64,000 bases of DNA from Terebella lapidaria. Its lineage: Eukaryota > Annelida > Polychaeta > Terebellida > Terebellidae. This document shows positions 313 to 57,545 of this stretch, piece by piece. The stretch's first letter is position 1. Each line of letters begins with the position of its first letter. Location of the stretch: NCBI GenBank assembly GCA_949152475.1, contig OX424564.1:40050165-40114164 (forward strand), given 5' to 3'. The notes beneath the pieces were generated by a model, which worked only from the letters and a program-made list of their open reading frames with translations, did no database searches and was not told the DNA's origin. Made by a program: the position numbers and the translations under genes.

Positions 313-1409
313 TAAGGCATTTCGGAAGAAATGCCTTTATGGTTTTAGCAGAATTGTTTTTTTCCTTTTTTTTCTTTTTTCTTTTTTTTCCGCCGTTTTG
401 GTTTCCGACCGATAACTTTAGTTTGCCTTGATGTATCTTCGCCAAATTTTCAGCATTGGTCAGACATATTATGTGGAAGAACTCTATTGTTTTTCAGCCG
501 GATTCGAGCCGTGAGGATGAAATCAATGTTGTTTTTTGGACTTTGTTTCCGCGCGATAACTCAAAAAGTATGTAGGCAATGGCTGCAGAACTTTGCAGGG
601 AGGTTCATATATCAATAGGGAAGAAACCTATTGATTTTGGGATCAATCCGTCAAACGACCTTTGACCTAGAGGTCGGAAGAGTTTTCGCCCAGTCATCCT
701 TGAGGTTTCCTGCATATCTTGGAAACGGTGCGTCGTAGAGCGAAACGGACGTTATTTTCAGACTCGTCGCCCTAGACAAACATGTGTAAGGGGTATTAAG
801 GATGACCTTCGACTTTGACCTTGAATTTTTCTGCCGAGTCGGCATTTTTCGTTATCGTCGATATCTCGGAAACGGTGCGTCGTAGAGCGAAACTGACATT
901 ATTTTCGGACTCGTGGCACTAGACAAACATATCTAAGAGGTATTATGGATGAACTTTGACCTTGACCTAAGATTTTTTCGCCGAGTCGGCATTTTTCGTT
1001 TTCGTCGATATCTCGGAATCGGTGCGTCGTAGAGCGAAACGGACGTTATGTTCGGACTCGTCGCCCTAGACAAACATGTCTAAGGGTTATTAGGGTGACC
1101 TTCGACCTTGACCTTGAATTTTTGTGCCGAGTCGGCAATTTTCATTTTCGTCGATATCTCGGAAACAGTGCGAAACAGACATTATTTTTGGACTCGTGGC
1201 ACTAGACAAACATGTCTAAGGGATATTAAGGATAAACTTTGACCTTGACCTAAAATTTTTTCACCGAGTCGGCATTTTTCATTCTCGTCGATATCTTGGA
1301 ACAGTGTGTCGTAGAGCATTGTAGAGCCCATGGTAAACATGTTATAAATATTACAAATTAGTCTTAACACCGAAATGCCTCCAAGGCATCTTTAGGCCTT
1401 GACATCTAG
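313..1409 (+). mobile_element. Family C Helentron-like element, copy 1
   Basis: The 5' end is a perfect hairpin, AAGGCATTTC-ggaa-GAAATGCCTT. A pyrimidine run and the module TTCCGCCGTTTTGG follow. The core holds about five tandem units of roughly 147 bases, each with the motif CGGTGCGTCGTAGAGCGAAAC-like. The 3' end has the inverted arm CCGAAATGCCT, then a hairpin CAAGGC/GCCTTG, then ACAT-CTAG at 1409, followed by T. Hairpin plus CTAG is a Helitron-type 3' end; the paired subterminal arms are a Helentron trait. There is no coding capacity. Confidence 0.75.
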
Positions 1410-1566
1410 TTTTTTCAAGTTGTTGGAGTTTTTCGTTTTCTATGATGGATAAGCAGCCTGCGAGGCAGTGTTCGAAGTGTGGATACTTTCTGGTGCCGTT
1501 TGAAGTCGATCCACACAAGTGATGTTCATCGTGCAGGCTGTTTGTCTGTTCTGTCGCACAACGATG

Positions 1567-1767
1567 AAAAAAATTGGACTTGGATGACCTTGAGTGCTAA
1601 ATGTCTGGCTTAAAATCTCGAAAGTGGCCTCATGAAGTCATATGCAGCATACCTAATGAAGACATTGAAATTCACAAGATGACCTTGACTGGTATATCTC
1701 ATAATCAGTCACCTACAATGCTCAAAACCAAAATTGTCCGGTAACCTATCATAGCCCTTGGGCTAAT
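1567..1767 (+). mobile_element. Family A 3' part, tandem unit 2
   Basis: Second-unit copy of the 112-312 fragment, with the same arm and 3' terminal hairpin (CATAGCCC instead of CTTAGCCC on one side). It is followed at once by the family C 5' hairpin. Confidence 0.8.
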
Positions 1768-2866
1768 TAAGGCATTTCGGAAGAAATGCCTTTATGGTTT
1801 TAGCAGAATTTTTTTTTTCCTTTTTTTTCTTTTTTCTTTTTTTTCCGCCGTTTTGGTTTCCGACCGATAACTTTAGTTTGCCTTGATGTATCTTCGCCAA
1901 ATTTTCAGCATTGGTCAGACATATTATGTGGAAGAACTCTATTGTTTTTCAGCCGGATTCGAGGTCCGTGAGGATGAAATCAATGTTGTTTTTTGGACTT
2001 TGTTTCCGCGTGATAACTCAAAAAGTATGTAGGCAATGGCTGCAGAACTTTGCAGGGAGGTTCATATATCAATAGGGAAGAAACCTATTGATTTTGGGAT
2101 CAATCCGTCAAACGACCTTTGACCTAGAGGTCGGAAGAGTTTTCGCCCAGTCATCCTTGAGGTTTCCTGCATATCTTGGAAACGGTGCGTCGTAGAGCGA
2201 AACGGACGTTATTTTCAGACTCGTCGCCCTAGACAAACATGTCTAAGGGGTATTAAGGATGACCTTCGACTTTGACCTTGAATTTTTCTGCCGAGTCGGC
2301 ATTTTTCGTTATCGTCGATATCTCGAAAACGGTGCGTCGTAGAGCGAAACTGACATTATTTTCGGACTCGTGGCACTAGACAAACATATCTAAGAGGTAT
2401 TATGGATGAACTTTGACCTTGACCTAAGATTTTTTCGCCGAGTCGGCATTTTTCGTTTTCGTCGATATCTCGGAATCGGTGCGTCGTAGAGCGAAACGGA
2501 CGTTATGTTCGGACTCGTCGCCCTAGACAAACATGTCTAAGGGTTATTAGGGTGACCTTCGACCTTGACCTTGAATTTTTGTGCCGAGTCGGCAATTTTC
2601 ATTTTCGTCGATATCTCGGAAACGGTGCGAAACAGACATTATTTTTGGACTCGTGGCACTAGACAAACATGTCTAAGGGATATTAAGGATAAACTTTGAC
2701 CTTGACCTAAAATTTTTTCACCGAGTCGGCATTTTTCATTCTCGTCGATATCTTGGAACAGTGTGTCGTAGAGCATTGTAGAGCCCATGGTAAACATGTT
2801 ATAAATATTACAAATTAGTCTTAACACCGAAATGCCTCCAAGGCATCTTTAGGCCTTGACATCTAG
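1768..2866 (+). mobile_element. Family C Helentron-like element, copy 2
   Basis: Near-identical to 313-1409: 5' hairpin, pyrimidine run, five core units of about 147 bases, the CCGAAATGCCT arm, the CAAGGC/GCCTTG hairpin and terminal CTAG at 2863-2866. It is a duplicate made with the whole 1.46 kb unit rather than a separate insertion, since both flanks are also identical. Confidence 0.75.
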
Positions 2867-5160
2867 TTTTTTCAAGTTGTTGGAGTTTTTCGTTTTCTAT
2901 GATGGATAAGCAGCCTGCGAGGCAGTGTTCGAAGTGTGGATACTTTCTGGTGCTGTTTGAAGTCGATCCACACAAGTGATGTTCATCGTGCAGGCTGTTT
3001 GTCTGTTCTGTCGCACAACGATGTCTGTTTTTTGAAGATTGGGACGACGGGAAGTTCGAGGAGATCGAGCGTCGTAAGGCGGACAGGGAGAAGAAGATGG
3101 CCTAATCGTCTGACAGGCGTTCTGTGGAAGCCAGGATGGATTCGCTTGAGCTACAAGTCGGAAATCTTTAGTCCTTGATCTCTAACCTCAACGCTCTTGT
3201 CGCTGCGCTGGTGGGTTAGAACTCGACTACTCCTTCTACGCCCACACTTCACGAGAGGCCGGATTCGCTGATTTCCAAGGACGTTTTTTTCTGGGGGGGG
3301 GGGGGGGAACGGACCTGCTTCCAGCCCTGCCAAGTCTACTTCGTCTTAGGGTCTTATGCCATTGAATCCGATTTTTCTGGAGTCGCCTTCCGGGTTTGTC
3401 TTATCGGGCCAGGGTAGCCAGTCTGTTGAGATCAGGGGCCCCGTGAGTCATGCCAAGACCGAAACGCCTGACTTTGCGACGGTTCTCCTACCTGACAGGG
3501 CTGTGGATGTCGTCATGGTTGATCGACCGTCTAACGACTCTACTCGAGAGGCCATAGATCAGCACCAGCACTGTTCGTCCGCCAGCGGTTCTGACCAGGC
3601 CGAGTTTCGGCTAGTCCGGCCAGGTCTATGGACACTGTCACCTCCAAGACTGCTTCTGAGTCAGAAGATGAGACCTTCACGCAGGTTAGGCGCTGGGTTC
3701 AGGAAACCTTCCCGGATCTCTTAGAGAAGCCTCAAGCTAAGGAGTCCCACTTCTCTCTCGGGGACAAGGTCCTCGCCTCTCGGGATGCTCTGGAGCCTGA
3801 TGTCCGTTTCCCATGGGCTGACAGCATCGCCTACGTTCGCTCCCTGGTGGAAGAGAACATTTTCTCCGCATGGCGGTACATCTCTCAAGAACTGACAAGT
3901 TCTTTCCAGGGGTTGCTCAAGCATTACCAGACTTCTGAGTCGTCGTCCACCCTGGAGGCAGTGGTGGTGAACTCATCGCCCCTGGGCTCAAGGCCTCGGG
4001 CGTGTCGGTGACACTCTCGGACTCCAACCTCTGCAGTTTGGAGTCGTATCCCCGTCGTGTTCAACTGGTAGCCACTCGTTGGACTGGTTATCCGGACTGC
4101 TCAGTCACCAGGTGGATCATCTTGATCCCGGTTCTGCCGGTTCGGATGTGGAAGCCAAGAGGCCACAGTGCGGTGCCTGTTGCAGACTTGGTACGCATGA
4201 AGAGGACTCTATCTTCATCGAATAAGTGCGTCGCCCAAATTGCCAAGGAGTCTCAAGTGGAGTGGGCCAACGTGGTTCTGCACAGGCGCCTTTCTCAAGA
4301 GAATGTCATCCGAACTCTCAGATGCTTTTCAGCTGAAGTTGCTCTCTAAGTTCTCTATCGCCAAGCTGGTAGAACGACAGGACAAGAAACCTTCACAGTC
4401 CTCCTCACAGTTAGATCCCAAGCTGAACAAGGCCTCGGACTCTAATTGCCAGTCTTCTCAGGGTTACCAGAAGGCCAAGTATGACAAGGCCAAGAAGTCT
4501 TCAGGTTCCTCTCGTGGTGGTCATGATGGGAGCGGTTCATCTTCCGGCTCCAAGGCCACGCCGCGCTCCTGATCAGTTCCAGACGCCCCCACGGTCCCAG
4601 CTTACCAGTGTATCCCCCGTGGGAGCACGTCTTCAGGCCTTCTGGCCTCATTGGGATACAGATTTTCGGGACTCCCTAGTGATCGCGATCCTCAAACACT
4701 GGTACAGTATTCCGTTTGATCAGACGCCTCCCCTGTCCCCAGTTCCTGTAACGTTCGCGTCCTATGCTCCAGGGTCAGAGAAGTTTCTGGTTTTCGTCAA
4801 GTTGATTTCTGAGATGCTCATCAAGCAGGCGACGGGGGTCGTGGCCCAGGTTTCACCAGGGTTTTACAGCTGTCTCTTCATCGTTCTGTAGCTGGAGTCC
4901 CATTATAGATCTCAGCCCTCTCAACAAGTTTATTCACATGGAGCGCTTCTCGATGGAGTGTCCTCACTCTGTCCTGTTGTCGCTATGCGAAGGGGATTGG
5001 ATGACGTCAATAGATGGTTTTCCAGTTCAGAGCACTGTGTTTCGTTCTCTCGACAGCTTTTTTCCTGTTCACCAGGGTCTTTCAGCCAGTTTCCGCGTGG
5101 GCTCACCTCAGGGAAATCCGGTTAAATATGTATCTGGACAATGGCTGATCATGGCATCCG
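2867..5160 (+). mobile_element. DIRS-type retroelement, partial copy 1 (fossil)
   Basis: The sequence runs parallel to 7553-9850 of DIRS copy 2 with only a few percent difference by eye. It begins with the same 5' leader and the start of the first frame (CSKCGHF-type, here CSKCGYF), passes the serine- and lysine-rich region around 4380-4570, and reaches the early reverse-transcriptase region with the MERFSMECPHSVLLSL motif at 4938-4985. It stops where family C sequence takes over. It is a fossil with several breaks, and because it closely matches copy 2 the two are probably related by duplication or recent activity. Confidence 0.8.
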
Positions 5161-5431: not shown

Positions 5432-6545
5432 TTAGCTTACCGGCCCTTTGGGCCGATAATCTATTGTCGTGGTATTTCGTCCGGCGTCCGTCGTCCGTCT
5501 GGGTCTGTAACTTTTTTTTGACATGATGAATTTCCCTATAAATATGTCAGAACATACCTTGGGCCAGTGGGCCGGTCTGCGTGTGGCGGCCATTTTGATT
5601 TTTTGACGGGTCGGCGAAAAAAAATTTTTTTTTGTCCCAAATCAAGTCACTATTCGTTTTGAGCCATTTCCAGCAAAAAATTTTTTTTGGACTTTTCACC
5701 CAATTTTCCTTCATAATGGGAGCTGTGCAGAGTAAACTCATAGAACACTTGAAGATAGAGCCTAAGTATTGGCACATTCAAATGGGAAATCATATATTGC
5801 GGTTTGAGTGATGACCTTGAATTTGACCTTCAATGACCTTGGAAGGTCAAAACGACCTTTTTTGTCGAAAAATGACCAATTTTGGATTGCTGATGGCCAT
5901 TTTCTCAAAACTGTCTGATCAGTTTTGAGATTTTTGTTTTCAAACATTTCCCTCATGTAACTCTATGATGTGTATGAGATACGTTGCCCTTGAATCGCCG
6001 GTCTGCGTGTGGCGGCCATTTTGATTTTTTCGACGGGTCGTCAAAAACAAATTTTTTTTTGTCCAAAATCAAGTCACTATTCGTTTTGAGCCATTTCCAG
6101 CAAAAAAAATTTTTTTTTGGCCATTGAAAAATTTTTTGGACTTGGAAAATTTCACCCAATTTTCCTTCATAATGGGAGCTGTACGGAGTAAACTCATAGA
6201 AGACTTCAAAATAGAGCCTAAGTATTGGCACATTCAAATGGGAAATCATATATTGCGGTTTGAGTGAAAGGTCAAAAACGATGAATTTTGTCTTTGGTGG
6301 CCATTTTGTCAAAATCTATTCAGACAGTTTTTCTCAAAATAATGTATGAGAATCTCTTATCTACCTTTGTGATGTGTAATTTGATTTCGTATTATATTCC
6401 ATGCAGAAAATGTGTTTCCAGCAACATTTATGAACATGTTTTGACAATTAGAGTTCAAGATCAGTGTAACAATTTATATGTTGGAAAATCAATACTCTGC
6501 GTTTCTCATGATTGCCGGTAAGCTACAGCACCCTTGGTGCTATGT
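5432..6545 (+). mobile_element. Family B Helentron-like element, copy 1
   Basis: The 5' end is TTAGCTTACCGGCCC-ttt-GGGCCGATAA, an imperfect hairpin, followed by a GTCCGGCGTCCGTCGTCC tract. The 3' end has GCCGGTAAGCTA at 6514-6525, the exact inverted copy of the 5' TAGCTTACCGGC. A perfect hairpin AGCACC-ctt-GGTGCT follows at 6527-6541. The interior holds two diverged repeats of a 'TGGCGGCCATTTTGA ... CATAATGGGAGCTG' block shared with family A. There is no coding capacity. Copy 2 at 56166 has the same ends. Confidence 0.75.
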
Positions 6546-6728
6546 TTATTTTTTTAAAGTTGATTATTATGATTGGCCTGAATATTTTTTGCTGAGTCAA
6601 CATTTTACATTTTCGTTGATATCTTGGAAACGGTGTGTCGTAGAGCCCATGGTAAACATGTTATAAATATTATAATTTAGTCTTAACTCCGAAATGCCTC
6701 CAAGGCATCTTTAGGCCTTAACGTCTAG
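6546..6728 (+). mobile_element. Family C fragment, right half with 3' end
   Basis: Contains the last core unit, the CCGAAATGCCT arm, the AAGGC...GCCTT hairpin and terminal CTAG at 6725-6728 (here ACGTCTAG). The terminal GTT is shared with, or abuts, the left inverted repeat of DIRS copy 2, so one of the two elements used the edge of the other. Confidence 0.7.
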
Positions 6729-7552: not shown

Positions 7553-7583
7553 TTTTTCAAGTTGTTGGAGTTTTTCGTTTTCT

Positions 7584-12249: not shown

Positions 12250-13468
12250 GTGATGTAGTTATGGTTTTGTCAGAATTCTTCATTTTTTTTTCTTCCACCG
12301 TTTTCGTTTCGGCGCCATAACTCGAGAACGCCTCAACAAATCGACTTGAAATTTTCAGCACTGTTCAGATATATCATGTCGATGTGCTGTATAGTTTTTG
12401 AGCCGGATCTGAGGTCCGTGAGGATGAAATCGAGGTCATTATTTGGACTTTGTTTCCGCGCGATAACTCAAAAACTATTCAGGCAATGGCTGCAGAACTT
12501 TGCATGGAGGTTCATATACCACCAGGGAAGAATCCTATTGATTTTGGGATCAATCCGTGAAACCTTTCACCTAGAGGTCGGAAGAGTTTTTGCCCAATCA
12601 TCCTTGAAGTTTCCTGCATATCTCAGAAACGGTGCGTCGTAGAGCGAAACGGACGTTATTTTGGGACTCGTCATTCTAGACAAACATGTCTGAGGGGTAT
12701 TATGGATGAACTTTGACCTTGACCCGAAATTTTTTTGCCGAGTCGAAATTTTTCGTTTTCGCCGATACGGAAACGGTGCATCATAGAGCGAAACGGACGT
12801 TATTTTTGGACTCGTCGCCCTAGACAAACATGCCTAAGGGATATTTGGAAAGGAATGACCTTTGACCTTGACCCTAATTTTTATCGCCGAGTCAGCATTT
12901 TTCTTTTTCATAGATATCTCAGAAACGGTGCATCGTAGAGCGAAACGGACGTTATTTTCGGACTCGTGGCTCTAGACAATATGCCTAAGGGTTATTACAG
13001 ATGAACTTTGACCTTGACCTGAATTTGTTTTTTGCTGAGTCGACATTTTTCATTTTCGTCGATATCTAGTATATATTATAAATTATTCTAACATGGTGAC
13101 GTCACAGCGCTCTTAGCATTTCAGTCATTTCAAAAGGTGTTATATCAGTTGATATACGGCCCTAGGGCCCTAGGGCAACGGCCTACACAAACGTCATGAC
13201 CGCAACAAACATTTGTAGCCATGGTAATGTTTATTTCCTTACAATCATTTACCATATTAGAATAGAAATAATGTATAGATTTGGAGTAATTGTCTGCAAA
13301 ATAAACTTCTCGGGACAGGTGATATAGCCATTGACGCCGTCGGCGTCTCGGGACCATATCACCTTGCCCTCGAAGTTTATTGTGCGACAATTACTCCAAA
13401 TCTATACATTATTCCTTAAATCATCACACCGAAATGCCTCCAAGGTATCTTTAGGCCTTGATGTCTAG
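12250..13468 (+). mobile_element. Family C Helentron-like element inserted in DIRS 3' part
   Basis: Family C text starts near 12250 (ATGGTTTTGTCAG, the TTCC-CCGTTTTCG module, and then about three core units with GTGCGTCGTAGAGCGAAAC). It ends with CACACCGAAATGCCTCC, a hairpin, and CTAG at 13465-13468. The usual 5' hairpin is not seen. The stretch 13070-13420 replaces normal family C sequence and contains a long palindrome. Confidence 0.65.
13267..13413. repeat. 147-bp imperfect palindrome
   Basis: AATAATGTATAGATTTGGAG at 13267 is repeated inverted at 13394-13413. The match continues inward (TAATTGTC, ATAAACTTC, GGTGATAT) to a centre near GACGCCGTCGGCGTC, with several mismatches. It could form a stem of about 60 bp. 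It may be a foldback/MITE-like insert in the family C element. Confidence 0.8.
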
Positions 13469-18684: not shown

Positions 18685-18685
18685 T

Positions 18686-23129: not shown

Positions 23130-23216
23130 GCGTGCCTGGATAAGTCTGCTATCCGACAGAAGCATGGCTATGACGCCCATGCCAAGGATAGGCCCGCTTT
23201 TGCGGAAGGAGATAAG

Positions 23217-30399: not shown

Positions 30400-33132
30400 T
30401 TAGGTTACCGGACCTTTGGTCCGATAACCTATTGGCATGGCGTTGCGTCCGTCCGTCCGTCCGTCCGTCCGTCCGTCCGGCGTTAACATTTTTATCTTTA
30501 AAGTTAACGATCGAATCTTTCTGAAATTTTGCACAAAAATGCCTAAAAATATTTTGAGGAGGTACTTTTTTGTTTTTTGATTTTCGCACTTTTTTCAAAA
30601 TGGCGGCCGTTTTTGTCGAAAAACGCTCAATTTTGGACTTTGACGGCCATTTTCTCAAAAACTGTCTGATCAGTTTTGAGTTTTTGGTTTCAAAAGATTC
30701 CCCTCATATACCTCTGTGATATGTATAAGTTTGGTTGCCCTAAATTCGCCGGTTTCCGTGTGGCGGCCATTTTGAATTTTTGGCGGGTCGGCGAAAAAAA
30801 TGTTTTTCACCCCAAATCGCATTACTATCGATTTTGGGCCATTTCTAGGGCAAAAAATTTTTTTCACCCTTTGAAAAAATTTTTGGACTTTGAAAATTTT
30901 CGGCACTTTTTTCCTTCATAATGGGAGCTGTCCGGACTGTACTCATAGAACGCTTGAAGATAGAGCTTAGAAATTGGCACTTTCAAATGGGAAGTCATAT
31001 ATGGCGACTTGTGTGGTGTCCTTGAATTTGACCTTGGATGACCTTGAAAGGTCAAAACAGCCATTTTTGGGTCGAGAAATGCTCAAATTTGCACCTGGAC
31101 TGTCTTTTCTCGAAAACTGTCTGATCAGTTTTGAGATTATTGTTTCAAAATATTCCCCTTATGTACCTTTATGATGTCTATAAGTTTTGTTGCCCTTGAA
31201 TCGCCGGTCTTCGTGTGGCGGCCATTTTGAATTTTTGACGGGTCGGCGAAAAAAATTTTGTTTGCCCCAAATCGCGTTACTATTCATTTTGGGTCATTTG
31301 TAGACAAAAAAAAATTTTCACCTTTGAAAAATGTTTTGGACTTGAAAAATATTCGGCACTTTTTTCCCTCATAATGGGAGCTGCCAGGACTGTACTCATA
31401 GTACGCTTGAAGATAGAGCTTAGATATTGGCACTTTCAAATAGGAAGTCATATATAGCGATTGGGGAGGGGACCTTGAATTTGACCTTTGATGACCTTGA
31501 AAGGTCAAAACAGCCATTTTTGGGTGAAAAAATACCCAAATTTGCCTCTACAGATGAAATGCATGTAGATAGAGCTTCAGTTTGCATTATGAACTTATAG
31601 GAAGTCATATATGGAACAACTAATGATGACCTTGATTTTGACCTTGGATGACCTTGAGTGCTAAATGTCTGACTTGAAATCTTGAAAGTGGCCTCTGAAG
31701 CATAAACTTTTGCACATACAAGTTAGGATTGTGTATAAGCCTGTAAAAAAGTCGTATAAATGGCACATTTTTAGGTTACCGGACCTTTGGTCCGATAACC
31801 TACTGGCATGGCGTTGCGTCCGTCGTCCGTCCGTCCGTCCATCCGTCCGTCCGTCCGTCCGTCCGTCCGTCCGTCCGGCGTTAACATTTTTATCTTTAAA
31901 GTTAACGATCGAATCTTTCTGAAATTTTGCACAAAAATGCCTAAAAATATTTTGAGAAGGAGGTATATTTTTGTTTTTTGATTTTCGCATTTTGTTCAAA
32001 ATGGCGGCCGTTTTTGTCGAAAAACGCTCAATTTTGGACTTTGACGGCCATTTTCTCAAAAACTGTCTGATCAGTTTTGAGTTTTTGGTTTCAAAAGATT
32101 CCCCTCATATACCTCTGTGATATGTATAAGTTTGGTTGCCCTAAATCTGCCGGTTTCCGTGTGGCGGCCATTTTGAATTTTTGGCGGGTCGGCGAAAAAT
32201 TTTTTTTCGCCCCAAATAACATTACTATCCATTTTGGGCCATTTCTAGGCAAAAAAAAATTTCATCCTTTGAAAAAAAATTTGGACTTGGAAAATTTTCG
32301 GCACTTTTTTCCTTCATAATGGGAGCTGTCAGGACTGTACTCATAGAACGCTTGAAGATAGAGCTTAGAAATTGGCACTTTCAAATGGGAAGTCATATAT
32401 GGCGACTTGTGTGGTGACCTTGAATTTGACCTTGGATGACCTTGAAAGGTCAAAACAGCCATTTTGGGGTCAAAAAATGCCCAGATTTGCCTTTGTAGAT
32501 GAAATGCTTGCAGATAGAGCTCATGTTTGCATTATGAACATATAGGAAGACATATATGGCACAACTAATGATGGCCCTGAACTTGACGTCAGATGACCTT
32601 GAGTGCCAAATGTCTGACTTGGAATGTGTAAATTGACCTGAGCAGCCTAAACGATTCCACCCAACATATAGAATATCAAATGCCGCACACATACATGTAA
32701 TGGTTACATCGAAGTTCATACGGATGACCTTGATTGGTAAATCCCAAGGTCATATGTTTACACTGCGAACCTTGATTGGTAAATCTCAAGGTCTGTTACC
32801 TGCCAATGCTGCCATGACCAAACCAAAATTGTCCCGGTAACCTATCTTAGCCTTTGGGCTAATTTTTTTTTTTCACATTTTTTTAACTTGACCTTAAAGA
32901 CCTTGAAGGGCGAATTTCAAAATCTGAAATTGGCCTCTACACACGAAATACTTGTTGATAAAAACTTATATGTTTGTATTATGAACATGTATACGAAGTC
33001 ATATGCAGCATATCTGATGGTGACATTGAGATTCACAAAGATGACCTTGACTGGTAAATCTCAAAATCATATGTCACCTACAATGCTTGAAACCAAAATT
33101 GTCCGGTAACCTATCTTAGCCCTTGGGCTAAT
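30400..33132 (+). mobile_element. Family A Helentron-like element, outer copy of a nest
   Basis: The 5' end is TTAGG with hairpin GGTTACCGGACC-ttt-GGTCCGATAACC (30403-30429), then eight GTCC units. The 3' end has GTCCGGTAACCT and the hairpin TTAGCCC-tt-GGGCTAA near 33116-33131. The interior has two 'GGCGGCCATTTTGA ... CATAATGGGAGCTG' blocks. A second full family A element sits inside at 31771-32864. Confidence 0.7.
31771..32864 (+). mobile_element. Family A Helentron-like element, inner copy
   Basis: 5' hairpin GGTTACCGGACC/GGTCCGATAACC, then about twelve GTCC units. 3' end CCGGTAACCTATC and hairpin TTAGCC-ttt-GGGCTAA, finishing in a T-run. It is about 95% alike by eye to the start of the outer copy. 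Inserted in CACATTTTT / TTTTTCACATTT. Confidence 0.75.
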
Positions 33133-34336: not shown

Positions 34337-36754
34337 TTGTATCCCCCGAACAGAGTTCGGCGGATACTATGGATTTGGCTTCGTCGTCCGCGTCCGCGTC
34401 CGCGTCCGTGTCCGCGTCCTCGTCCGCAGAGATTTTCTTGTGAACGCGCTACAGGCCGCAATTCTCACCCGATCACCATTATTTTTTGCAGGCACATATA
34501 TAATGGTAAGATCCCGACAGCAATCGATTTTGGTTGTCGTGGCAACTGAATTGGTCGTTTGGGGACACATTTTGCATTGAAAACAGCCTGTTTGAGACAC
34601 ATGGCTTGTGAACGCGCTACAGGCCGCAATTCTCACTCGATCACCATTATTTTTTGCAGGCACATATATTATGGTAAGATCCCGACACCAATCGATTTTG
34701 GTTGCCGTGGCAACTGAATTTGTCGTTTGGGGACACATTTTGCATTGAAAACAGCCTGTTTGAGACACATGGCTTGTGAACGCTCTACAGATGGCAATTT
34801 TTGACAAATCTCGATAATATTCGGAAGTGTTGTTGGGAAGGGCTGTCACACGAAACCAATCGTTTTTTAGAATGATCATATAAATATTAATATGTTAACA
34901 GCCTAACTTATTACAGAATTTTGAAATATCCATTTTGACATGTACGATCATTCCAATAGCCTGTACAATGGAAGGTAATGACACTGGTTTCTTGTTCAGA
35001 ATGGAGAACTGAAGTTTTCAGTGAAAACAGGACCATATTACTGAATAAGTTAACATTAGTTTTAATAGTTAAGTCTATTATTGTCCACAATAAAAATAGT
35101 TAAGACGAGAAACGTTTATTATTAAGCTCAACAAGGTAAAGGTTTTGTCCAGTACAGATTTCATGGGTGTAACTGAATAAGTTAACATTATTTTTACTAG
35201 TTAAGTCTATTATTGACCACAATAAAAATAGTTAAGACAAGAAATATTTATTATTAACCTCAACAAGGTAAATGTTTTGTCCAGTACAAATTTCATTGGT
35301 GTAACCGAATAAGTTAACATTATTTTCACTAGTTAAGTCTATTATTGACCACAATAAAAATAGTTAAGTCCATTATTGACCACAATAAAAATAGTTAAGA
35401 CAAGAAATATTTATTATTGGGCTCAACAAGGTGAAAGTATATCCAGTACAGATTTTATGGCTGTGACCAAATAAGTTAACATTATTTTTTTGCTAGTTGA
35501 GTCTATTGTTTATCACAATAGCTTTTTATGAAAACATTGATCAACTTTTACTTTGAATTTCAACTTGAGACCATGTTTGGCACAAATTATGAGTTAAAAT
35601 ATAACTTATGGTGAAAAATTCGATCTGGCTCCAATTTCGTCATCTTGAAATGCAGTTTTGGTCAACTTTTACTTTGAATTTCAACTTGAAAGCATGTTTG
35701 GCACATATTATAAGTCGAAATATAACTTATGGTGAAAAGTTCGATCTGGCTCCATTTTCGTCATCTTGAAATGCAGTTTTGGTCAATTTTTAGTTTGAAT
35801 TTCAACTTGAAAGCATGTTTGGCACATATTATAAGTCGAAATATAACTTATGGTGAAAAGTTCGATCTGGCTCCATTTTCGTCATCTTGAAATGCAGTTT
35901 TGGTCAATTTTTAGTTTGAATTTCAACTTGAAACCAAGTTTGGCACATATTATGAGTTGAAATATAACTTATGATGAAAAGTTCGATCTGGCTCCAATTT
36001 CTTCATCTTGAAATGCAGTTTTGGTAAACTTTTAGCCTGAATTTCAACTTGAAACCAAGCTTGGCACATCTTATGAGTTGAAATATAACTTATGACGAAA
36101 AGTTCTATCTGGCTCCAATTTCGTTATCTTGAAATGCAGTTTTGGTCAACTTTTACATTGAATTTCAACTTAATACCAAGTTTGGCACATATCATGGGTT
36201 GAAATATAACTCATGGCGAAAAGTTTGATCTGGCTCCAATTTTGTCATATTGAAATGCAGTTTTGATTAACTTTTACTTTGAATTTCAACTTGGAACCAT
36301 GTTTGGCACATACATGTATTATGAGTCGAAATATAACTTATGGTGAGAAGTTCAATCTGGCTCCAATTTCGTCATCTTGAAATGCATTTTTGGTCAAATT
36401 TTATTTTGAATTTCAACTTGGAACCAAGTTTGTAAAATATTCTGAGTTGAAATATAAATAGGTGAAAAGATTGATCTATCTGTATTTTCATTATTTTATC
36501 AAACATGTCGAATGGAAATTCATATAAAGAGATTTCAGTGGTGATTTTGAATTCGACCTTCAATAACCTCGGAAAATCAGTGCAGCAATTTTGGTGGGGA
36601 AAAGAACACAGTTGTGACTTGAGATTTAACATTTCTCTGGTAATCTTTTTTAGCCCTTGCTCTAGTTTTTCACACTTGATATATTTGGGGAAACAAAGAT
36701 AATAGGGCGACGGGGGATACACCCAAGCGGTCGTAGGCGACCGGAAGCGTCTAG
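34337..36754 (+). mobile_element. Family D Helentron-like element, copy 1
   Basis: 5' hairpin GTATCCCCCGAAC-aga-GTTCGGCGGATAC at 34339-34367, then a TCCGCGTCCGCG tract. The 3' part has CGGGGGATAC at 36711-36720 (inverse of the 5' GTATCCCCCG), the hairpin CGGTCG-tagg-CGACCG, and terminal GCGTCTAG at 36754. The core holds three repeat blocks: ~168-bp units (34434-34800), ~112-bp units with ATAAAAATAGTTAAG (34990-35520), and ~121-bp units with ATGCAGTTTTGGTCAA (35525-36460). No coding capacity: the 170-codon minus frame at 34367 is repeat translation. Confidence 0.8.
36637..36667 (+). repeat. Decayed family A-type 3' end inside family D copy 1
   Basis: CTCTGGTAATCTTTTTTAGC followed by CCTTGCTCTAGTTTTT mirrors family A's CCGGTAACCTATCTTAGCCC end. 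It stands about 44 bases before the family D arm. The same stretch is at 39415-39445 and at 14050. Confidence 0.65.
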
Positions 36755-36867: not shown

Positions 36868-39540
36868 TTGTATCCCCCGAACAAAGTTCGGCGGATACTA
36901 TGGATTTGGCTTCGTCGTCCGCGTCTGCGTCTGCAGAGATTTTCTTGTGAACGCGCTACAGGCCGCAATTCTCACCGGATCACCATTATTTTTCGCAGGC
37001 ACATATATAATGGTAAGATCCCGACACCAATCGATTTTGGTTGCCGTGGCAACTGAATTGGTCGTTTGGGGACACATTTTGCATTGAAAACAGCCTGTTT
37101 GAGACACATGGCTTGTGAACACGCTACAGGCCGCAATTCTCAACCGATCACCATTATGTTTCGCAGACACATATATTATGGTAAGATCCCGACACCAATC
37201 GATTTTGGTTGCCGTGGTAACTGAATTGGTCGTTTGGGAACACATTTTGCATTGAAAACAGCCTGTTTGAGACACATGGCTTGTGAACGCTCTACAGATG
37301 GCAATTTTTGACGAATCTCGATAATATTTGGAAGTGTTGTTGGGAAGGGCTGTCACACGAAACCAATCGTTTTTTAGAATGATCATATAAATATTAATAT
37401 GTTAACAGCCTAACTTATTACAGAATTTTGAAATATCCATTTTGACATGTACGATCATTCCAATAGCCTGCACAATGGAAGGTAATGACACTGGTTTCTT
37501 GTTCAGAATGGAGAACTGAAGTTTTCAGTGAAAACAGGACAATATTACTGAATAAGTTAACATTAGTTTCACTAGTTAAGTCTATTATTGTCCACAATAA
37601 AAATAGTTAAGACGAGAAACGTTTATTATTAAGCTCAACAAGGTAAAGGTTTTGTCCAGTACAGATTTCATGGGTGTAACTGAATAAGTTAACATTATTT
37701 TTAATAGTTAAGTCTATTAATGAATACAATAAAAATAGTTAAGACAAGAAATATTTATTATTAACCTCAACAAGGTAAATGTTTTGTCCAGTACAAATTT
37801 CATTGGTGTAACCGAATAAGTTAACATTATTTTCACTAGTTAAGTCTATTATTGACCACAATAAAAATAGTTAAGTCTATTATTGACCACAATAAAAATA
37901 GTTAAGATGAGAAATATTTATTATTAAGCTCAACAAGGTGAAAGTATGTCCAGTACAGATTTCATGGGTGTACTGAATAAGTTAACATTATTTTTACTAG
38001 TTGAGTCTATTATTGACCACAATAAAAATAGTTAAGACAAGAAATATTTATTATTGGGCTCAACAAGGTAAAGATTCTGTCCAGTAGACATTTTATGTCT
38101 GTAACCAAACAAGTTGACATTTATTTTGCTAGTTAGGTCTATTATTGACCTCAATAAAAATAGTTAAGATGAGAAACAATTATTATTGAACTCAACAAGG
38201 TTAAGGTTTTGTCCGGTAGAAATTTCTGGGTGTAACCGAATAAGTTAACTTTATATTTACATGTTAAGTCTATTATTGACCACAATGAAAATAGTTAAGA
38301 CAAGAAATATTTATTATTGGGCTCAACAAGGTGAAGGCTTTGTCCAGTAGAGATTTTATGGCTGTGACCAAATAAGTTAACATTATTTTTTTGCTAGTTA
38401 AGTCTATTATTGATCACAATAGCTTTTTATGAAAACATTGATCAACTTTTACTTTGAATTTCAACTTGAGACCATGTTTGGCACAAATTATGAGTTAAAA
38501 TATAACTTATGGTGAAAAGTTCGATCTGGCTCCATTTTCGTCATCTTGAAATGCAGTTTTGGTCAATTTTTAGTTTGAATTTCAACTTGAAACCAAGTTT
38601 GGCACATATTATGAGTTAAAATATAACTTATGATGAAAAGTTCTATCTGGCTCCAATTTCTTCATCTTGAAATGCAGTTTTAGTAAACTTTTAGCTTGAA
38701 TTTCAACTTGAAACCAAGTTTGGCACATATTATGAGTTAAAATATAACTTATGATGAAAAGTTTTATCTGGCTCCAATTTCGTCATCTTGAAATGCAGTT
38801 TTGGTCAATTTTTACATTGAATTTCAACTTAATACCAAGTTTGGCACATATGATGAGTTGAAATATAACTCATGGCGAAAAGTTTGATCTGGCTCCAATT
38901 TCGTCATCTTGAAATGCAGTTTTGGTCAACTTTTAGTTTGAATTCCAACTTGAAATCAAGTTGGGCAGGTATTATGAGTTAAAATATAACTCATGACGAA
39001 AAGTTTGATCTGGCTCCAATTTTGTCATCTTGAAATGCAGTTTTTATTAACTTTTACTTTGAATTTCAACTTGAAAGCATGTTTGGCACATACATGTATT
39101 ATGAGTCGAAATATAACCTATGGTGAGAAGTTCAATCTGGCTCCAATTTCGTCATCTTGAAATGCATTTTTGGTCATATTTTACTTTGAATTTCAACTTG
39201 GAACCAAGTTTGTAAAATATTCTGAGTTGAAATATAAATAGGTGAAAAGATTGATCTATCTGTACTTTCGTTATTTTATCAAACATGTCGAAATGGAAAT
39301 TCTTATAAAGAGATTTCAGTGGTGATTTTGAATTCGACCTTCAATGACCTCGGAAAATCAGTGCAGCAATTTTGGTGGGGAAAGTAAACAGTTGTGACTT
39401 GAGATTTAACATTTCTCTGGTAATCTTTTTTAGCCCTTGCTCTAGTTTTTCACACTTGACAATGATATATTTAGGGCAACAGAGATGATAGGGCTACGGG
39501 GGATACACCCAAGCGGTCGTAGGCGACCGGAAGCGTCTAG
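36868..39540 (+). mobile_element. Family D Helentron-like element, copy 2
   Basis: Same ends as copy 1: GTATCCCCCGAAC-aaa-GTTCGGCGGATAC, CGGGGGATAC, CGGTCG-tagg-CGACCG and CTAG at 39537-39540. It carries more ~112-bp core units than copy 1, and a shorter CCGCG tract. Close similarity and identical orientation suggest either two insertions in the same minisatellite or a tandem duplication. Confidence 0.8.
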
Positions 39541-45666: not shown

Positions 45667-46018
45667 TTGGATTGGATTGGATTTATTCAGGGGGTGAGCC
45701 CTCAGGATAACCCACGAAATTGCACGCACTTATTTCCAGTGGGGTCATGTATTATGTCATGTGTGTACTGCATTGTCAGAATTTCTATAGCGGCCTGAAG
45801 CAGATCAGGGTACATCTATCAGCTTCCCCGTCACCACCGCTGAGAATCCCGGTGCAGCAACCGTAATCCTCACCCAGCACCAAGTTTAATGTCCTTTCCG
45901 GGCCGAAGGACAACATATCAAGTGCTAAATTCGCCAGGGAGTGAGCCCTGGGATCGAACCCGGGACCACTCGTTTGTGAGGCGAGCGCTCTACCACTGAG
46001 CAACTGACACCCGATATA
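45664..46018 (-). mobile_element. tRNA-Val-derived SINE
   Basis: Read on the minus strand, 46010 to 45945 looks like a tRNA: A-box region TTGCTCAGTGGTAGAGCGC, anticodon loop CTCACAA (anticodon CAC, Val) and B box GGGTTCGATCCC. A ~270-base unrelated body follows, ending in CTGAATAAATCC and an AATCC repeat tail at 45664. It would be copied by RNA polymerase III and moved by a LINE. The 89-codon minus frame at 45785 is SINE sequence, not a gene. Confidence 0.85.
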
Positions 46019-51022: not shown

Positions 51023-51074
51023 TTAGGCATCCCGATTGAAAATCGGGAGGCCTCATGTTTTTGTCTGTTTTTTT

Positions 51075-51106
<32 letters not shown>

Positions 51107-52401
51107 TTTTTCTTCCGCCGTTTGGTTTCCGGATCATAACTCTTGAACGCCTCGATCTATCTTTCCGAAATTTTCACAGCTCATCCGAAATACTTTGCTT
51201 CTAACCCCTATTGTTTTTCGTCGAGATCCGAAATCCAAGATGGCCGCCAGCGGCCATTTTGGAAAAAAAAATCGGGCGATTCCTGTCAATGTCATAATTT
51301 GATTCAGGCAATTTCCAGAGGAAAAAAAATTTTGTAGGTGCATTTTTTTTTTTTTTTGGACTTAGAATTTTTCCCTCGCCTGCGCCCATGCAGATGTAAT
51401 ACTGTAACTGAGCCATGCTACTGTATTCACTGACTGCATCCTGCATGTCCAGCATGAGGCTAGGCTCTGCCCTCTCAGCCAGTGCAGGAGATCAGCCAGT
51501 CTGTCCAGCACAGCAATGGGCTCTGCCCCTCTCAGCCAGCCCTGCTCAGTCATGCCTTACAAGATCAGCCAGTCTGTCCAGCTCAGAAATAGGCTCCGCC
51601 CCTCTCAGCCAGCCCTGCTCAGTCATGCCTGACAAGATCAGCCAGTCTGTCCAGCACAGAAATAGGCTCCACCCCTCTCAGCCAGCCCTGCTCAGTCATG
51701 CCTGACAAGTGATACAGCTAGCATGTCCAACATGACCCTAGGCTCATATCCATGCATTATCCCTCACTCCCCCCTCCAAAGCCTGGTTTACTAGTGTGTG
51801 TACATAGTAAAAGAATGAAGTTCCATCCCACAGAATACAATAGTTGGTTAATAAGCCAACACACATGACACAACATGCTTGGGGAATGATTTGCCCTGTC
51901 TGCATTTATATTGTACAAACATGTATTGTTTGAATGTTTTGTTATTCAACTCTATTTCACATGCAATGACCGAATCATCATTGTTTTAGTTAGCTGGCAA
52001 ATGTTTGGCTTTGGTTATAATATGAATGCGAAAATTCCGCCGTATTGTACAAGTTTTGAAATCACAAAATTGGCCAAGATGACACAGCATTCTTTTAGTC
52101 ACGTATCATTTTATATTTGACAGGAGCACCTGAAAAATATCACGAACATTCTGATTAAATATACTAGTACGCTGAATAATATTGACTGGGTAATTGTCCA
52201 TTCATTTGGGGTGGCAAATGTCTGGTGGGCCAAGTTGTCAAGATGATAAAAAGCAGTTCTGGTAAGAAACTGTCTGATGAGCTCTCACTCTTACCCACAT
52301 ACAATGGCCTATGTATCCTTTTTTCTCAGTCCAGTATGACCATTTGAAATGATAAGAACAAAATGGGGGATGCCACAAAGCCTATAGGCTTTTATGTCTA
52401 G
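51023..52401 (+). mobile_element. Family E Helentron-like element
   Basis: 5' hairpin CCCGATT-gaa-AATCGGG (51031-51047) within TTAGGCATCCCG...GGGAGGCCTC. A long T-run and the TTCCGCCGTTTGG module shared with family C follow. 3' end: GGGATGCC at 52367-52374 (inverse of 5' GGCATCCC), hairpin AAAGCC-tata-GGCTTT (52377-52392), then TATGT-CTAG at 52401. Includes a ~73-bp tandem block at 51463-51712. Single copy in the window. Confidence 0.75.
51463..51712 (+). repeat. ~73-bp tandem repeat in family E
   Basis: Three to four units with CAGCCCTGCTCAGTCATGCC and GATCAGCCAGTCTGTCCAGC. Confidence 0.9.
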
Positions 52402-52500: not shown

Positions 52501-53059
52501 TTAAGGCATTTCAGCAGAAATGCCTTTATGGTTCTGTCAAAAACCACTTTTTTCTTCTTTTTTTTCACTTTTTGGTTTCCGCCCGATAACTTCGATAACG
52601 GACGTTATTTCCGGACACATCGCCCTAGACAAACATGTCTTAAAGGTATTAGGTATGAGCTTTGACCTTGACCTTAAATTTTCTCACCGAGTCGTCATTT
52701 TTCGTTTTTGTCGATATCTCGGAAACAGTGCGTCGTAGAGCTAAACGGACGTTATTTTCGGACTCGTGGCACTAGACAAAAATATCTAAGGGGTGAACTT
52801 TGTCTTTGACCCGAAATTTTTTTGCCAAGTCGGCATTTTTCATCTTCGTCGTTATCACGGAAACTGTGTGACCTAGAGCAAAACAGACATTAGACAGATA
52901 GTCTTTGGAATATCAAGTTTGTCCTTCACATACAAGTAATTGCATAAATGTCTTATAGATCTCATTGGGAGCTTCGTCATGTTTTTCCTGAGTCAGCATT
53001 TTGTTTTTTTCATGTTTAACCCTGAAATGCCTCCAAGGCCTTTAGGCCTTGACGTCAAG
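52501..53059 (+). mobile_element. Family C Helentron-like element, short copy
   Basis: 5' hairpin AAGGCATTTC-agca-GAAATGCCTT, about two core units, then CTGAAATGCCTCC, GGCCTTTAGGCC and GACGTCAAG where CTAG is expected. The end is mutated. Confidence 0.7.
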
Positions 53060-54375: not shown

Positions 54376-56163
54376 TTAGGTTACCGGACCTATGGTCCGA
54401 TAACCTATTGGCATGGCGTTGCGTCCGTCGTCCGTCCGTCGTCCGTCGTCCGTCGTCCGTCCGTTCACATTTTTATCTTTAAAGTATATGGTCAAATCTT
54501 TCTGAAATTTTGCACAAAAATACCTAAAAATATTTCCAGGAAAGGTTTTTTTTAGTTTTCTGATTTCCGCATTTTTTTCAAAATGGCGGCCATTTTTGAC
54601 GAAAAATGCCTGATTTTGGACTTTGGCGGCCATTCTCTCAAAATCTGTTCGATAACTTTTTTTCTTACTGATGCATAACACTCTTCATATGTACTTCTAC
54701 GATGTGTATAAGTTTCGTTGTCCTTGAATCGCTCGAAGTGGGCCATTTTGGGCCCAAACTCGGCCCGAATGGGACTTTCCCATGTTAAATTCTCCTATGC
54801 TTTATAATGGGACACATTAAGCCTAATATCTCACTTAATATTGAGATTAGAGACTAGGAATCAATTGTGGACATATAGGAAATGATATATGCTGAATATT
54901 CTTGTGACCTTGAATTTGACCTCTGACCTCGGTTTCAAGGTCAGAGCGGCCATTTTAGTCGAAAAATGGCCAATTTTGGAGTTTGACGGTCGTTTACTCA
55001 AAATCTGTTCAATAACTTTTTTTCTTATTGATGCACAACACTCCTCATATGTACCCCTGTGACATGTATAAATTTCGTCCCCCTCGAATCGCTCTAAGCG
55101 GGCCATTTTGGCCCAAACTCGGCCCAAATAGGACTTTCCCATGTTAAATTCTCCTATGCTTTATAATGGGACACATTATGCCTAATATCTCACTTAATAT
55201 TGAGATTAGAGACTAGGAATCAATTGTGGACATATAGGAAATGATATATGCTGAATATTCTCGTGACCTTGAATTTGATCTCTGACCTCAGTTTCAAGGT
55301 CAGAGCACAAAATGGCTTATATCTCGCTTACTATCGACTCTACAGCTTAGGAATCAATTGTGGACATATAGGAAATGATATATGCTGAATATTCTGATGA
55401 CCTTGAATTTGACCTTTGACCCCATTTTCAAGGTCATAGGACAAAATGGCTTATATCTCGCTTATTATCGACTCTGCAGCTTAGGAATCAATTGTGGACA
55501 TATAGGAAATGATATATGCTGAATATTCTGATGACCCTAAATTTGACCTTTGACCCCATTTTCAAGGTCATAGGACAAAATAGCTAATATCTCGCTTGTC
55601 ATCGACTTTACGGCTTACGAATCAGTTCTGAACATATAGGAAATGATATATGCAAATTATTGTCGTGACCTTGATTTTGACCTTTGACCTCATTTTCAAG
55701 GTCACAGGACAAAGTGGCTAATATCTCACTTATTATCGATTTTACAGCTTAGGAATCAATTGTGGACATATAGGAAATGATATATGCTGAATATTCTTGT
55801 GGCCTTGAATTTGACCTCTGACCTCATTTTCAAGGTCCAAGTACAAACTGGCTCATACATGTATCTTGCTCCTCTATTGACTGTATGGCTTGGGAATCAA
55901 TTGTTGACATATAAAAAGTGATATACACTGAATATTTTGATTACCTTGAATTTGACCCTTGCCTTCATTTTCAAGGCCACAGCACAAAATTGCTAATATC
56001 TCTCTGTTTTGAATTTACAGCTTAGCAATCAACTGTGGACATGATATATGCTCAATATTATATATGCTGAATATTCTCTTGACCTTGAATTTAACCAGTG
56101 ACCTGGCTAACATCTAAAATATTAAACATTTTCCGGTAACCTATCTTTGGCCCTTGGCCTAAT
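54376..56163 (+). mobile_element. Family A Helentron-like element, long-core copy
   Basis: 5' hairpin GGTTACCGGACC-tat-GGTCCGATAACC, CCGTCGTCC tract. The core has about nine ~115-120-bp units of 'AGGAATCAATTGTGGACATA ... GACCTTGAATTTGACC'. 3' CCGGTAACCTATC and TTTGGCCC-tt-GGCCTAA. Confidence 0.75.
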
Positions 56164-56165
56164 TT

Positions 56166-57545
56166 TTAGCTTAAAAGAGCCTTTGGGCCGATAAGCTATC
56201 GTCGTGGTATTTCGTCCGTCGTCCAGCGTCCGTTGTCCGTCCGTCGTCCGTCCGGGTCTGTAACTTTTTTTTGACATGATGAATTTCCCCATAAATTTGT
56301 CAGAACATACCTTGGGTCAGTGTCTAAAGATTTTTTTGATTGAATCGTTTTTGCCTATTTGGCGGCCATTTTTGACGAAAAATTGCCAATTTTGGATTTT
56401 GGAGGACATTTTCTCAAAAACTGTCTGATCAGTTTCGAGATTTTTGTTTCAAAACATTCCTCTCATGTACCTTTATGACGTGTATAAGTTTCGTTGCTCT
56501 TGAATCGCCGGTCTGCGTGTGGCGGCCATTTTGATTTTTTGACGGGTCGGCGAAAAAAAATTTTTTGTCCCAGATCAAGTCACTATTCGTTTTGAGCCAT
56601 TTCCAGCAAAAAAAAAAAAACATTTTTTTGGCCATTGAAAAGTTTTTTGGACTCAGAAAATTTCACCCGATTTTTCCTTCATAATGGGAGCTGTGCGGAG
56701 TAAACTCATAGAACACTTCAAGATAGAGCCTAAGTATTGGCACTTTCAAATGGGAAATCATATATTGCGGTTTGAGTGATGACCTTGAATTTGACCTTCA
56801 ATGACCTTGGAAGGTCAAAACTACCTTTTTTGTCGAAAAATGGCCAATTTTGGATTTTTGATGGCCATTTTCTCAAAAACTGTCTGATAAGTTTTGAGAT
56901 TTTTGTTTTAAAACATTCCCCTCATGTACCTCTACGATGTGTATGAGTTTCGTTGCCCTTGAATCGCCGGTCTGCGTGTGGCGGCCATTTCGATTTTTCG
57001 ACGGATCGGCAAAAAAAATGTTTTTTGTCCAAAATCAAGTCACTATTCGTTTTGAGCCATTTCCAGCAAAAAAAAAAAACAAATTTTTTTTTTTGGCCAT
57101 TGAAAAATTTTTTGGACTTCACCCAATTTTTCCTTCATAATGGGAGCTGTGCGGAGTAAACTCATAGAAGACTTCAAAATAGAGCCTAAGTATTGGCACA
57201 TTCAAATGGGAAATCATATATTACGGTTTGAGTGATGACCTTGAATTTGACCTTCAATGACCTTGAAAGGTCAAAAACGATGAATTTTGTCTTTAGTGGC
57301 CATTTTGTCAAAATCTATTCAGACAGTTTTTCTCAAAATAATGTATAAGATTCTCTTTATCTACATTTGTGATGCGTAATTTGATTTCGTATTATAGTCC
57401 ATGCAGAAAATGTGTTTCCAGTAACATTTACGAATATGTTTTGACAATTAGAGTTCAAGATCAGTGTAACAATTTATGTGTTGGAAAATCAATACTCTGC
57501 GTTTGTCTTGTATGCCGGTAAGCCACAGCACCCTTGGTGCTATAT
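56166..57545 (+). mobile_element. Family B Helentron-like element, copy 2
   Basis: 5' end TTAGCTTAAAAGAGCC-ttt-GGGCCGATAAGCTA, 3' GCCGGTAAGCCA at 57514 and hairpin AGCACC-ctt-GGTGCT at 57527-57541. It starts two bases after the 3' hairpin of the family A copy, head to tail. Confidence 0.75.

Follow-up and report, generated by a model that had tools for sequence, protein, structure and literature searches.

Families of elements with Helentron-type ends in the annelid Terebella lapidaria

A stretch of 64,000 nucleotides from Terebella lapidaria (assembly GCA_949152475.1, contig OX424564.1, positions 40,050,165 to 40,114,164), here called the window, contains five families of elements, A to E, that each carry a hairpin at the 5' end and an inverted copy of its left arm near the 3' end. 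These ends raise the question of which class of transposon the families represent and whether their combination of traits is new. It is very probable (roughly 93%) that they are non-autonomous rolling-circle transposons of the Helentron/Helitron2 type (HINEs), presumably mobilised in trans by the Rep-helicases that autonomous elements of this genome encode. They are an ordinary, well-confirmed example of a published design, and this includes the mixture of traits that had seemed odd.

Ends of the five families in the window

The initial annotation had proposed five families with one terminal plan, and all five end pairs were found at the window positions it gave. The copies and single ends were as follows.

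30401..33131, + strand: family A region, from sequence and end pairing; 5' hairpin at 30401-30431 (TAGGTTACCGGACC...), second A 5' hairpin at 31772-31802, additional A 3' end at 32832-32862, and 3' subterminal copy, hairpin and CTAA at 33101-33131
54377..56162, + strand: family A copy; 5' hairpin at 54377-54407, 3' end at 56131-56162 with the variant hairpin TTGGCCC..GGCCTAA
6856..7551, + strand: family A copy; 5' hairpin at 6856-6886, 3' end at 7521-7551 (CTAA), directly followed by TTTTTTCAAG, the empty site of C insertions
281..311, + strand: family A 3' end, CTAA at 308-311; its T-run hosts C copy 1, and this A-end/C junction recurs at 1736-1766
5433..6541, + strand: family B copy; 5' hairpin at 5433-5463, 3' copy and hairpin at 6514-6541, 3' boundary approximate
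56167..57541, + strand: family B copy that begins within the T-run following an A 3' end; 5' hairpin degraded, 3' copy and hairpin at 57514-57541
314..1409, + strand: family C copy 1; 5' hairpin at 314-337, 3' copy, hairpin and CTAG at 1372-1409; full-length copies elsewhere in the genome are 92% identical
1769..2866, + strand: family C copy 2, located in a second, tandemly duplicated version of the unit containing C copy 1; 5' hairpin at 1769-1792, CTAG end at 2829-2866
52503..53059, + strand: short family C copy; hairpin AAGGCATTTC-AGCA-GAAATGCCTT, 3' terminus CAAG
34339..36754, + strand: family D copy 1; 5' hairpin at 34339-34367, 3' copy, hairpin and CTAG at 36711-36754
36870..39540, + strand: family D copy 2; 5' hairpin at 36870-36898, 3' end at 39497-39540
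51025..52401, + strand: family E copy; 5' hairpin at 51025-51053, 3' copy, hairpin and CTAG at 52367-52401
6691..6728, + strand: family C 3' end terminating in CTAG; a pattern scan gave no C 5' hairpin in the adjacent upstream sequence
13431..13468, + strand: family C 3' end terminating in CTAG; a pattern scan gave no C 5' hairpin in the adjacent upstream sequence

In all five families the inverted repeats were subterminal, with one copy at the 5' tip and the other inside the 3' end, and the two arms paired perfectly over 8 to 13 bp. The 3' copy was offset by 20 to 34 nt from the 3' end, which makes the repeats asymmetric, and a second hairpin, a palindrome of different sequence, lay beyond it. 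A 5' hairpin, in which the 5' repeat folds back on a downstream inverted repeat, was present in every family, as had been proposed, but was degraded in the second B copy; in B the inner six pairs alone fold. One or two inner mismatches were present between the 5' hairpin arms in A, B, D and E, and the mismatched bases varied by family. The end sequences, which had been described as unrelated, were not all so: A (TAGGTTACCGGA) and B (TAGCTTACCGGC) are distinguished by only 2 of 12 bases, each change being mirrored in the 3' copies, and AGGCAT is common to the ends of C and E. The 3' CTG of the short C copy matches its 5' loop bases CAG, and in one C copy outside the window (locus L037) the 3' copy no longer matches the 5' loop, which counts against the HINE reading. 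CGTCC-type microsatellites occur in A and B and in D copy 1.

The 5' junctions read TT followed by AGG, AGC, AAGG, GTAT or AGGC, with no 5' TC start. Family A had been thought to end in a T-run; however, 16 of 18 A ends read CTAA (one of 19 rows, a palindrome read backwards, was excluded), and the Ts, which continue as TT in 17 of the 18, are flanking target. The CTAG ends proposed for C, D and E were recovered in all three (24/28 C ends and 9/9 D ends after exclusion of palindrome and chance rows), though not in the short C copy. A 3' CTRR terminus, a trait of canonical Helitrons, was thus found in A, C, D and E. When 18 terminal tetramers were tallied, CTAA had 6 hits, CTAG 4, GTAA 2 and the remainder none; these are hits rather than independent elements, D escapes the filter, and one CTAG and both GTAA derive from sequence past an A end.

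A structural scan of the window for a hairpin, a downstream inverted copy and a second hairpin gave 12 hits on the + strand, 8 of them in A to D, compared with at most 1 in any of 10 dinucleotide shuffles. The − strand and the reversed window, however, each yielded 11 hits, since hairpins also arise within the core tandem repeats, and the window alone is therefore weak evidence. Open reading frames of at least 150 amino acids were absent from the window copies of A, B, C and E; the D copies contain two on the − strand (175 and 167 amino acids). A Pfam scan of 10 of the 29 window frames of at least 150 amino acids detected integrase domains in two; the remaining eight had no match.

Genome-wide abundance and target sites

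Searches of the 762-Mb assembly covered the patterns of A, D and E, the multiplicity of C being known from many individual copies. Exact 5' hairpins numbered 10,796 for A, 1,999 for D and 992 for E, and E 3' ends were found at 1,214 places; the reversed control pattern gave 0 in each case. The pairing of 5' hairpin with 3' end that the initial annotation had envisaged was borne out for E on contig C1, where, among the matches listed, 77 of 92 5' ends were followed on the same strand by an E 3' end (median, 1,130 bp), compared with 7 that had one upstream and 1 with one on the other strand. The counts with their zero controls, together with the pairing of E ends, settle the reality of families A, D and E.

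Insertion was at TT, with no target duplication other than Ts seen. TT followed 26 of 28 C 3' ends and preceded 17 of 18 C 5' ends. Among 18 C junctions (6 of 24 rows, palindromes read backwards, were excluded), the target was TNATT in 11 of the 17 flanked by TT, and it was TNATT in 9 of 10 D junctions, against a background of 8.5%. Insertions of A sit in T-runs. For C copy 1 (314-1409) the window also contains the empty site (comparison with 7521-7575); at this single site, the net gain was the element plus two Ts.

The 3' end of A followed by its target (CTAA|TT) reads TAATT, which is the C/D target, and might be an insertion hot spot for other families. Exact junctions of D in an A end numbered 38 genome-wide (reversed control, 0), where chance would give perhaps 2 to 16 by a rough TNATT count with guessed numbers of A ends and D copies; with such inputs the hot spot is a remark only.

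The flanking TT, together with high copy number, short elements and inverted repeats at both ends, would also be expected of MITEs, that is, deletion derivatives of DDE cut-and-paste transposons with a TT target duplication and terminal inverted repeats that became subterminal by chance. There is precedent for such a reading in the bivalve "Pearl" elements, which were originally called MITEs and are now classed as non-autonomous Helentrons (PMC7492417). However, the inverted repeats in A to E are asymmetric, a different hairpin lies beyond them at the 3' terminus, the terminal tally selects CTRR, and Rep-domain genes are abundant in the genome. Thus, it seems very unlikely that the families are MITEs.

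Rep-helicase genes and the proposed mechanism

Among 234 candidates for Helitron_like_N, 150 were scored, and 104 of these have open frames of at least 2,000 amino acids. One Rep-domain gene carries STPR, DUF6570 and OTU domains. Of two Rep lineages examined, the second (L055) has an endonuclease C-terminus (PF03372) above the Pfam cut-off; in the first, such a domain fell short of the cut-off (E = 0.014). The least probable reading, that A to E are canonical Helitrons (Helitron1) that gained inverted repeats by chance or capture, accommodates the 3' CTRR termini, the 3' hairpin and the A that precedes TT in most C and D targets, but not the absence of 5' TC, the 5' hairpin with a subterminal copy in all five families, or the endonuclease and OTU domains of the Rep genes.

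The autonomous partner that the initial annotation had envisaged was looked for and not identified: Helentron-like genes are present, but no A to E end was found in the stretches covered around the two lineages (∼4.8 and ∼1.9 kb after their frames). A pyrimidine run upstream of one Rep frame was considered as an element end; by eye, a splice acceptor is more likely. Nine Rep hits on contig C1 below 61.8 Mb were, among the matches listed, at least 153 kb from any listed E 5' end. At 7.3 kb, the longest E copy was rejected as an autonomous element: it contains a nested D, and visual inspection of 1.6 kb of its sequence revealed no Rep. Rep motifs, searched by regular expression, had no match in the window and 48 loci, and when the two end pieces of a Helentron were compared by tblastn with the window and loci L001-L048, all matches were weak (best E = 0.36).

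The proposal that these are Helentron-type, HINE-like elements bounded by hairpins is supported by the ends, the target sites and the empty site. By analogy with the family, transposition of such HINEs would begin at the 5' end, where a short inverted repeat folds into a hairpin with the bases immediately downstream and where the Rep nuclease would nick. The helicase would then peel off one strand as far as the 3' end, with its subterminal copy able to pair with the 5' arm, its second hairpin and CTRR (CTAA in A; CTAG in C, D and E). The 3' hairpin and the pairing of the 5' and 3' arms would be the stop signal, and the peeled strand would be integrated at TT with no duplication of the target. 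In that case the two additional Ts at the empty site would belong to the element; a 2-bp target duplication would look identical.

Relation to published elements and the hairpin mismatch

The shared end plan is that published for Helitron2, Helentrons and HINEs (PMC3627910, PMC4067079, PMC7492417). The 5' hairpin, which had been considered unusual, defines the Helitron2 group (PMC3627910) and equals the inverted repeat complementary to the subterminal inverted repeat (subTIR) of DINE-1 and oyster HINEs. Helitron2 resembles A to E in its ATIRs, one at the 5' tip and the other preceding the 3' hairpin, an ATIR-built 5' hairpin, a 5'-terminal T and compensatory changes among related families. It differs in that the Chlamydomonas types insert after TTTT, and the available portion of that paper mentions no fixed mismatch in the hairpin. 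DINE-1/HINE elements and Helentrons share subTIRs, the 5' inverted repeat, the 3' stem-loop, a microsatellite, central repeats and at least two Ts at each end (PMC4067079).

A close likeness extends to the Cg_HINE elements of the Pacific oyster, with a 5' subTIR and complementary inverted repeat (the 5' hairpin), a 3' subTIR and palindrome, a GTCC-type microsatellite, central satellite-like tandem repeats, an oligo-T target and many families with differing ends per genome, no partner being identified (PMC7492417). Their target is plain oligo-T, whereas it is mostly TNATT in C and D, and CTAG, found here in C, D and E, has 0 occurrences in that text.

CTAG ends together with subterminal repeats had been regarded as an unusual Helitron/Helentron mixture, but this was already published for oyster elements with CTAG ends at A|T targets, subTIRs and a 5' inverted repeat, termed possible Helitron/Helentron intermediates (PMC7992393). 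Insertion there was between A and T in 86%, and subTIRs were present in 257 of 751, 33% of which had an inverted repeat at the 5' end. Those elements have 5' TC instead of TT and a hairpin, and a microsatellite is described in only one. Proto-Helentron-Pi also combines 5'TT, 3'CTAG and A|T insertion, in a structure described as Helitron-like (PMC4067079). FoHeli1/2 of Fusarium oxysporum have ATIRs and hairpins at both ends, and their insertion after TNAT resembles the TNATT of C and D; they differ in a 3' ATTTT instead of CTAG or CTAA, and elements with transposase genes are described (PMC5148889).

The TNATT target and the fixed 5' hairpin mismatch of A and D are modest additions to published knowledge. 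The mismatch is fixed genome-wide (10,796:18 in A; 1,999:1 in D), while the left arm matches the 3' repeat perfectly. In A, B, D and E the left arm has its perfect complement in the 3' copy and not in the right arm of the hairpin, so that an emerging 3' end could displace the latter. It is conceivable, although doubtful, that the hairpin is a built-in weak lock, in which the replicated 3' copy displaces the mismatched right arm and signals the stop; that the mismatch, present in thousands of copies of A and of D, is a functional part of rolling-circle termination seems similarly questionable. Its fixation is no proof of selection, because copies inherit the mismatch from few source elements.

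The mismatched hairpin with perfect pairing of the left arm and 3' repeat bears on a published idea of termination, and families A to E suit tests of arm displacement. The oyster mixture of Helitron and Helentron traits is now shown in a second data set. Sharply bounded families with ∼1,000 to more than 10,000 exact ends, beside many large Rep-domain frames, provide material for matching HINEs with their helpers.

Terminal plan of the five families

Coordinates of the termini were checked in the window, and all five families of short non-autonomous elements (A to E) had a 5' hairpin whose left arm recurs in inverted form near the 3' end, together with a second, 3' hairpin of another sequence. 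A scan for this plan in the window yielded 12 matches on the plus strand and 11 on the minus strand, compared with 11 in the reversed window and no more than 1 in any of 10 shuffles. This window-only test is weak because the core repeats fold into hairpins of their own. The genome-wide tests of the A, D, and E ends are strong: the exact 5' hairpins were present 10,796, 1,999, and 992 times, respectively, and the reversed control patterns 0 times. For A, D, and E, these counts, together with the confirmed window coordinates, bear out the plan proposed in the initial annotation. The E 3' end (≤3 mismatches allowed) had 1,214 matches genome-wide (control, 0), and 100 of the 100 matches listed had 0 mismatches, exact ones possibly being listed first.

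The pairing of 5' hairpins with 3' ends, which the initial annotation had called for, was evaluated for E on contig C1, to which all 100 listed 5' ends belong; 92 of these precede the last listed 3' end. For 77 of the 92, the downstream 20 kb of the same strand contained a listed 3' end (median, 1,130 bp), compared with 7 of 92 for same-strand 3' ends upstream and 1 of 92 for opposite-strand 3' ends. Truncation may account for the 15 unpaired 5' ends, or their 3' ends may be among those unlisted. The copies examined gave lengths of 1.3 to 2.7 kb for A (8 end pairs) and 0.7 to 5.1 kb for D (6 end pairs); C ranged from 0.6 to 3.2 kb (19 end pairs, two of which were tandem-duplicate window copies). 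A DNA search of the genome with C gave 89 matches from the 40 scored of 8,037 first-look candidates.

The window (C11:40050165-40114164 of the 761.6-Mb, 438-contig assembly) is repeat-rich, with HINE-like elements, a probable LTR retrotransposon, satellite arrays, and a sequence judged by eye to be DIRS-like, from which the ORFs submitted had no Pfam match. Its other repeats included the following:

~18000-30075: probable LTR retrotransposon; its two ends look alike by eye and flank integrase zinc-binding and core domains
24354-24976: 207-bp tandem repeat in three perfect copies, inside the putative LTR retrotransposon
42165-45667: 27-bp satellite of ~130 units, with a minus-strand open frame of 1,050 aa
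45937-46009, minus strand: tRNA-Val(cac)-like sequence (Rfam score, 33.4), ~270 bp off the end of the 27-bp satellite, which could be a tRNA-derived SINE instead of a gene

Boundaries and target sites

At 7521-7575, a site without C, the end of an A copy (GGGCTAA) is followed by TTTTTT and then CAAGTTGTTGG, whereas the occurrences of this site that carry C, at 281 and 1736, read GGGCTAA, TT, the element (AAGGC...CTAG), TTTTTT, and CAAGTTGTTGG. Comparison of the empty and filled sites therefore indicates that C spans hairpin to CTAG, plus two Ts that either belong to the element or arose by duplication.

Junctions were collected from the window, loci L004 to L008, 20 chosen C copies from the C search list, and 200 kb at round-number coordinates, and were made distinct by 12-nt flank. 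Palindromes read backwards or chance matches were dropped from the 5' junctions (6 of 24 for C; 4 of 19 for A) and the 3' junctions (3 of 31 for C; 1 of 10 for D; 1 of 19 for A), and the scan overlooked at least two window A 5' copies (31772 and 6856). The left flank was TT in 17/18 C, 10/10 D, and 15/15 A junctions. TNATT was found in 11 of the 17 TT-flanked C junctions (p ~1e-8; background, 8.5%) and in 9/10 for D (p ~2e-9), and it also precedes one B copy (5433) and the window's E copy; at least four Ts preceded 12/15 A copies. TT was also on the right flank of 26/28 C, 8/9 D, and 17/18 A ends. The terminal letters were CTAG in 24/28 C and 9/9 D ends and CTAA in 16/18 A ends. A tally of 18 terminal tetramers in which CTRR was not presupposed gave CTAA 6, CTAG 4, and GTAA 2, with both GTAA and one CTAG stemming from sequence past an A end, some matches having an end in common, and D lost to the low-complexity filter.

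Arrays and nested insertions of these ends were also observed. At 14131-14276, a D-like 3' end (CGGGGGATACACCCCAGGTGCGTCTAG) passes into five near-perfect 28-bp units, each GATACACCCCCAAAGCGTCTAGTTTATT; this head-to-tail array of the D-like 3' terminus and its TT target may record termination, or insertion, that recurred at one end. Across window positions 1-2920 and C11:40049008-40053041, a unit of A 3' end, family C, and host sequence is arranged head-to-tail with a period of ~1,456 bp, and its three C copies, one just beyond the window's left edge, are 99 to 100% alike. D lay exactly at an intact A 3' terminus (CTAA joined to TT, giving TAATT, a D target) in 38 places in the genome (reversed control, 0), a raw count that need not exceed chance.

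Relations between the ends

The A and B 5' ends (TAGGTTACCGGA and TAGCTTACCGGC) differ at 2 of 12 bases, and the 3' copy matches both changes. A C subfamily has the 5' end AGGGCATTTC in locus L021 and AGGGTATTTC in L035, and the 3' end GAAATGCCCC in L035 and L037; both ends were present only in L035, where they fail to match at one of nine bases. A short C copy at 52503 has CAG in the 5' loop and a matching CTG at the 3' end; the match between 5' loop and 3' end is broken in one L037 copy. Compensatory end changes of this kind are described for Helitron2 (PMC3627910). Upstream of the 3' copy, both D elements (~36633-36675 and ~39413-39455) have a stretch (TCTGGTAATCTTTTTTAGCCCTTGCTCTAGTTTTT) that resembles an A-like 3' end in decay, and the D right end could accordingly be an A end with a new terminus.

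The 5' hairpin has one inner mismatch in A, D, and E and two in B; that of C is perfect. Hairpin folds (DNA parameters) were -10.2, -7.1, -9.9, -9.7, and -12.6 kcal/mol for A to E, versus -16.5, -16.3, -15.5, -15.4, and -12.2 kcal/mol for pairing of the left arm with its 3' copy, intra- and intermolecular energies that are not strictly comparable; the difference was absent in E. Mismatched forms outnumbered perfect ones by 10,796 to 18 in A and 1,999 to 1 in D, a predominance that inheritance from a few source elements explains as well as selection. It has been suggested that ATIR-ATIR pairing opens the 5' hairpin when rolling-circle replication ends (PMC3627910). The mismatch fits this idea and is in itself no test of it.

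Candidate helpers and known relatives

A genome search for autonomous elements by Helitron_like_N gave 234 candidates; 150 were scored, all past the cut-off, and 104 of these had an open frame of at least 2,000 aa.

C14:4393521: one of these Rep elements, with STPR repeats, DUF6570, and an OTU protease ahead of the Rep domain

The C terminus of this element is endonuclease-like (PF03372 under its cut-off; E, 0.014). Identity to a second copy was 99.7% across 1.6 kb of upstream sequence and 99.25% across 2.0 kb of downstream sequence, pointing to recent activity. A second Rep lineage had an endonuclease C terminus above the cut-off. Downstream of an open Rep gene in locus L050 (~3004-3909; C14 ~4401403-4402308) is a 328-bp tandem repeat of ~2.8 copies. 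The A to E end patterns had no match in the stretches examined around both lineages, which reach ~4.8 kb and ~1.9 kb past the two Rep frames, short of the element ends. On C1 below 61.8 Mb, none of the 9 Rep hits listed came closer than 153 kb to any listed E 5' end. The genome contains the helper type, and its Rep elements are candidate helpers of A to E, a pairing that is putative here as it was for the oyster elements (PMC7492417).

The initial annotation had considered the 5' hairpin, and CTAG ends together with subterminal repeats, to be unusual. Neither view held against the literature: the hairpin is a defining trait of Helitron2 (PMC3627910), and CTAG, subTIRs, insertion between A and T, and a 5' IR have been reported together in oyster and termed a possible intermediate (PMC7992393). 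HINEs have the entire plan of A to E, including the 5' IR, GTCC microsatellite, and tandem core (PMC4067079, PMC7492417); FoHeli1/2 are reported to have a target of the TNAT type (PMC5148889), and canonical Helitrons are described as mostly CTAG-ended (PMC6591975). Given these precedents for plan, hairpin, mixture, and target, it is therefore well supported that A to E belong to an already known kind of element.
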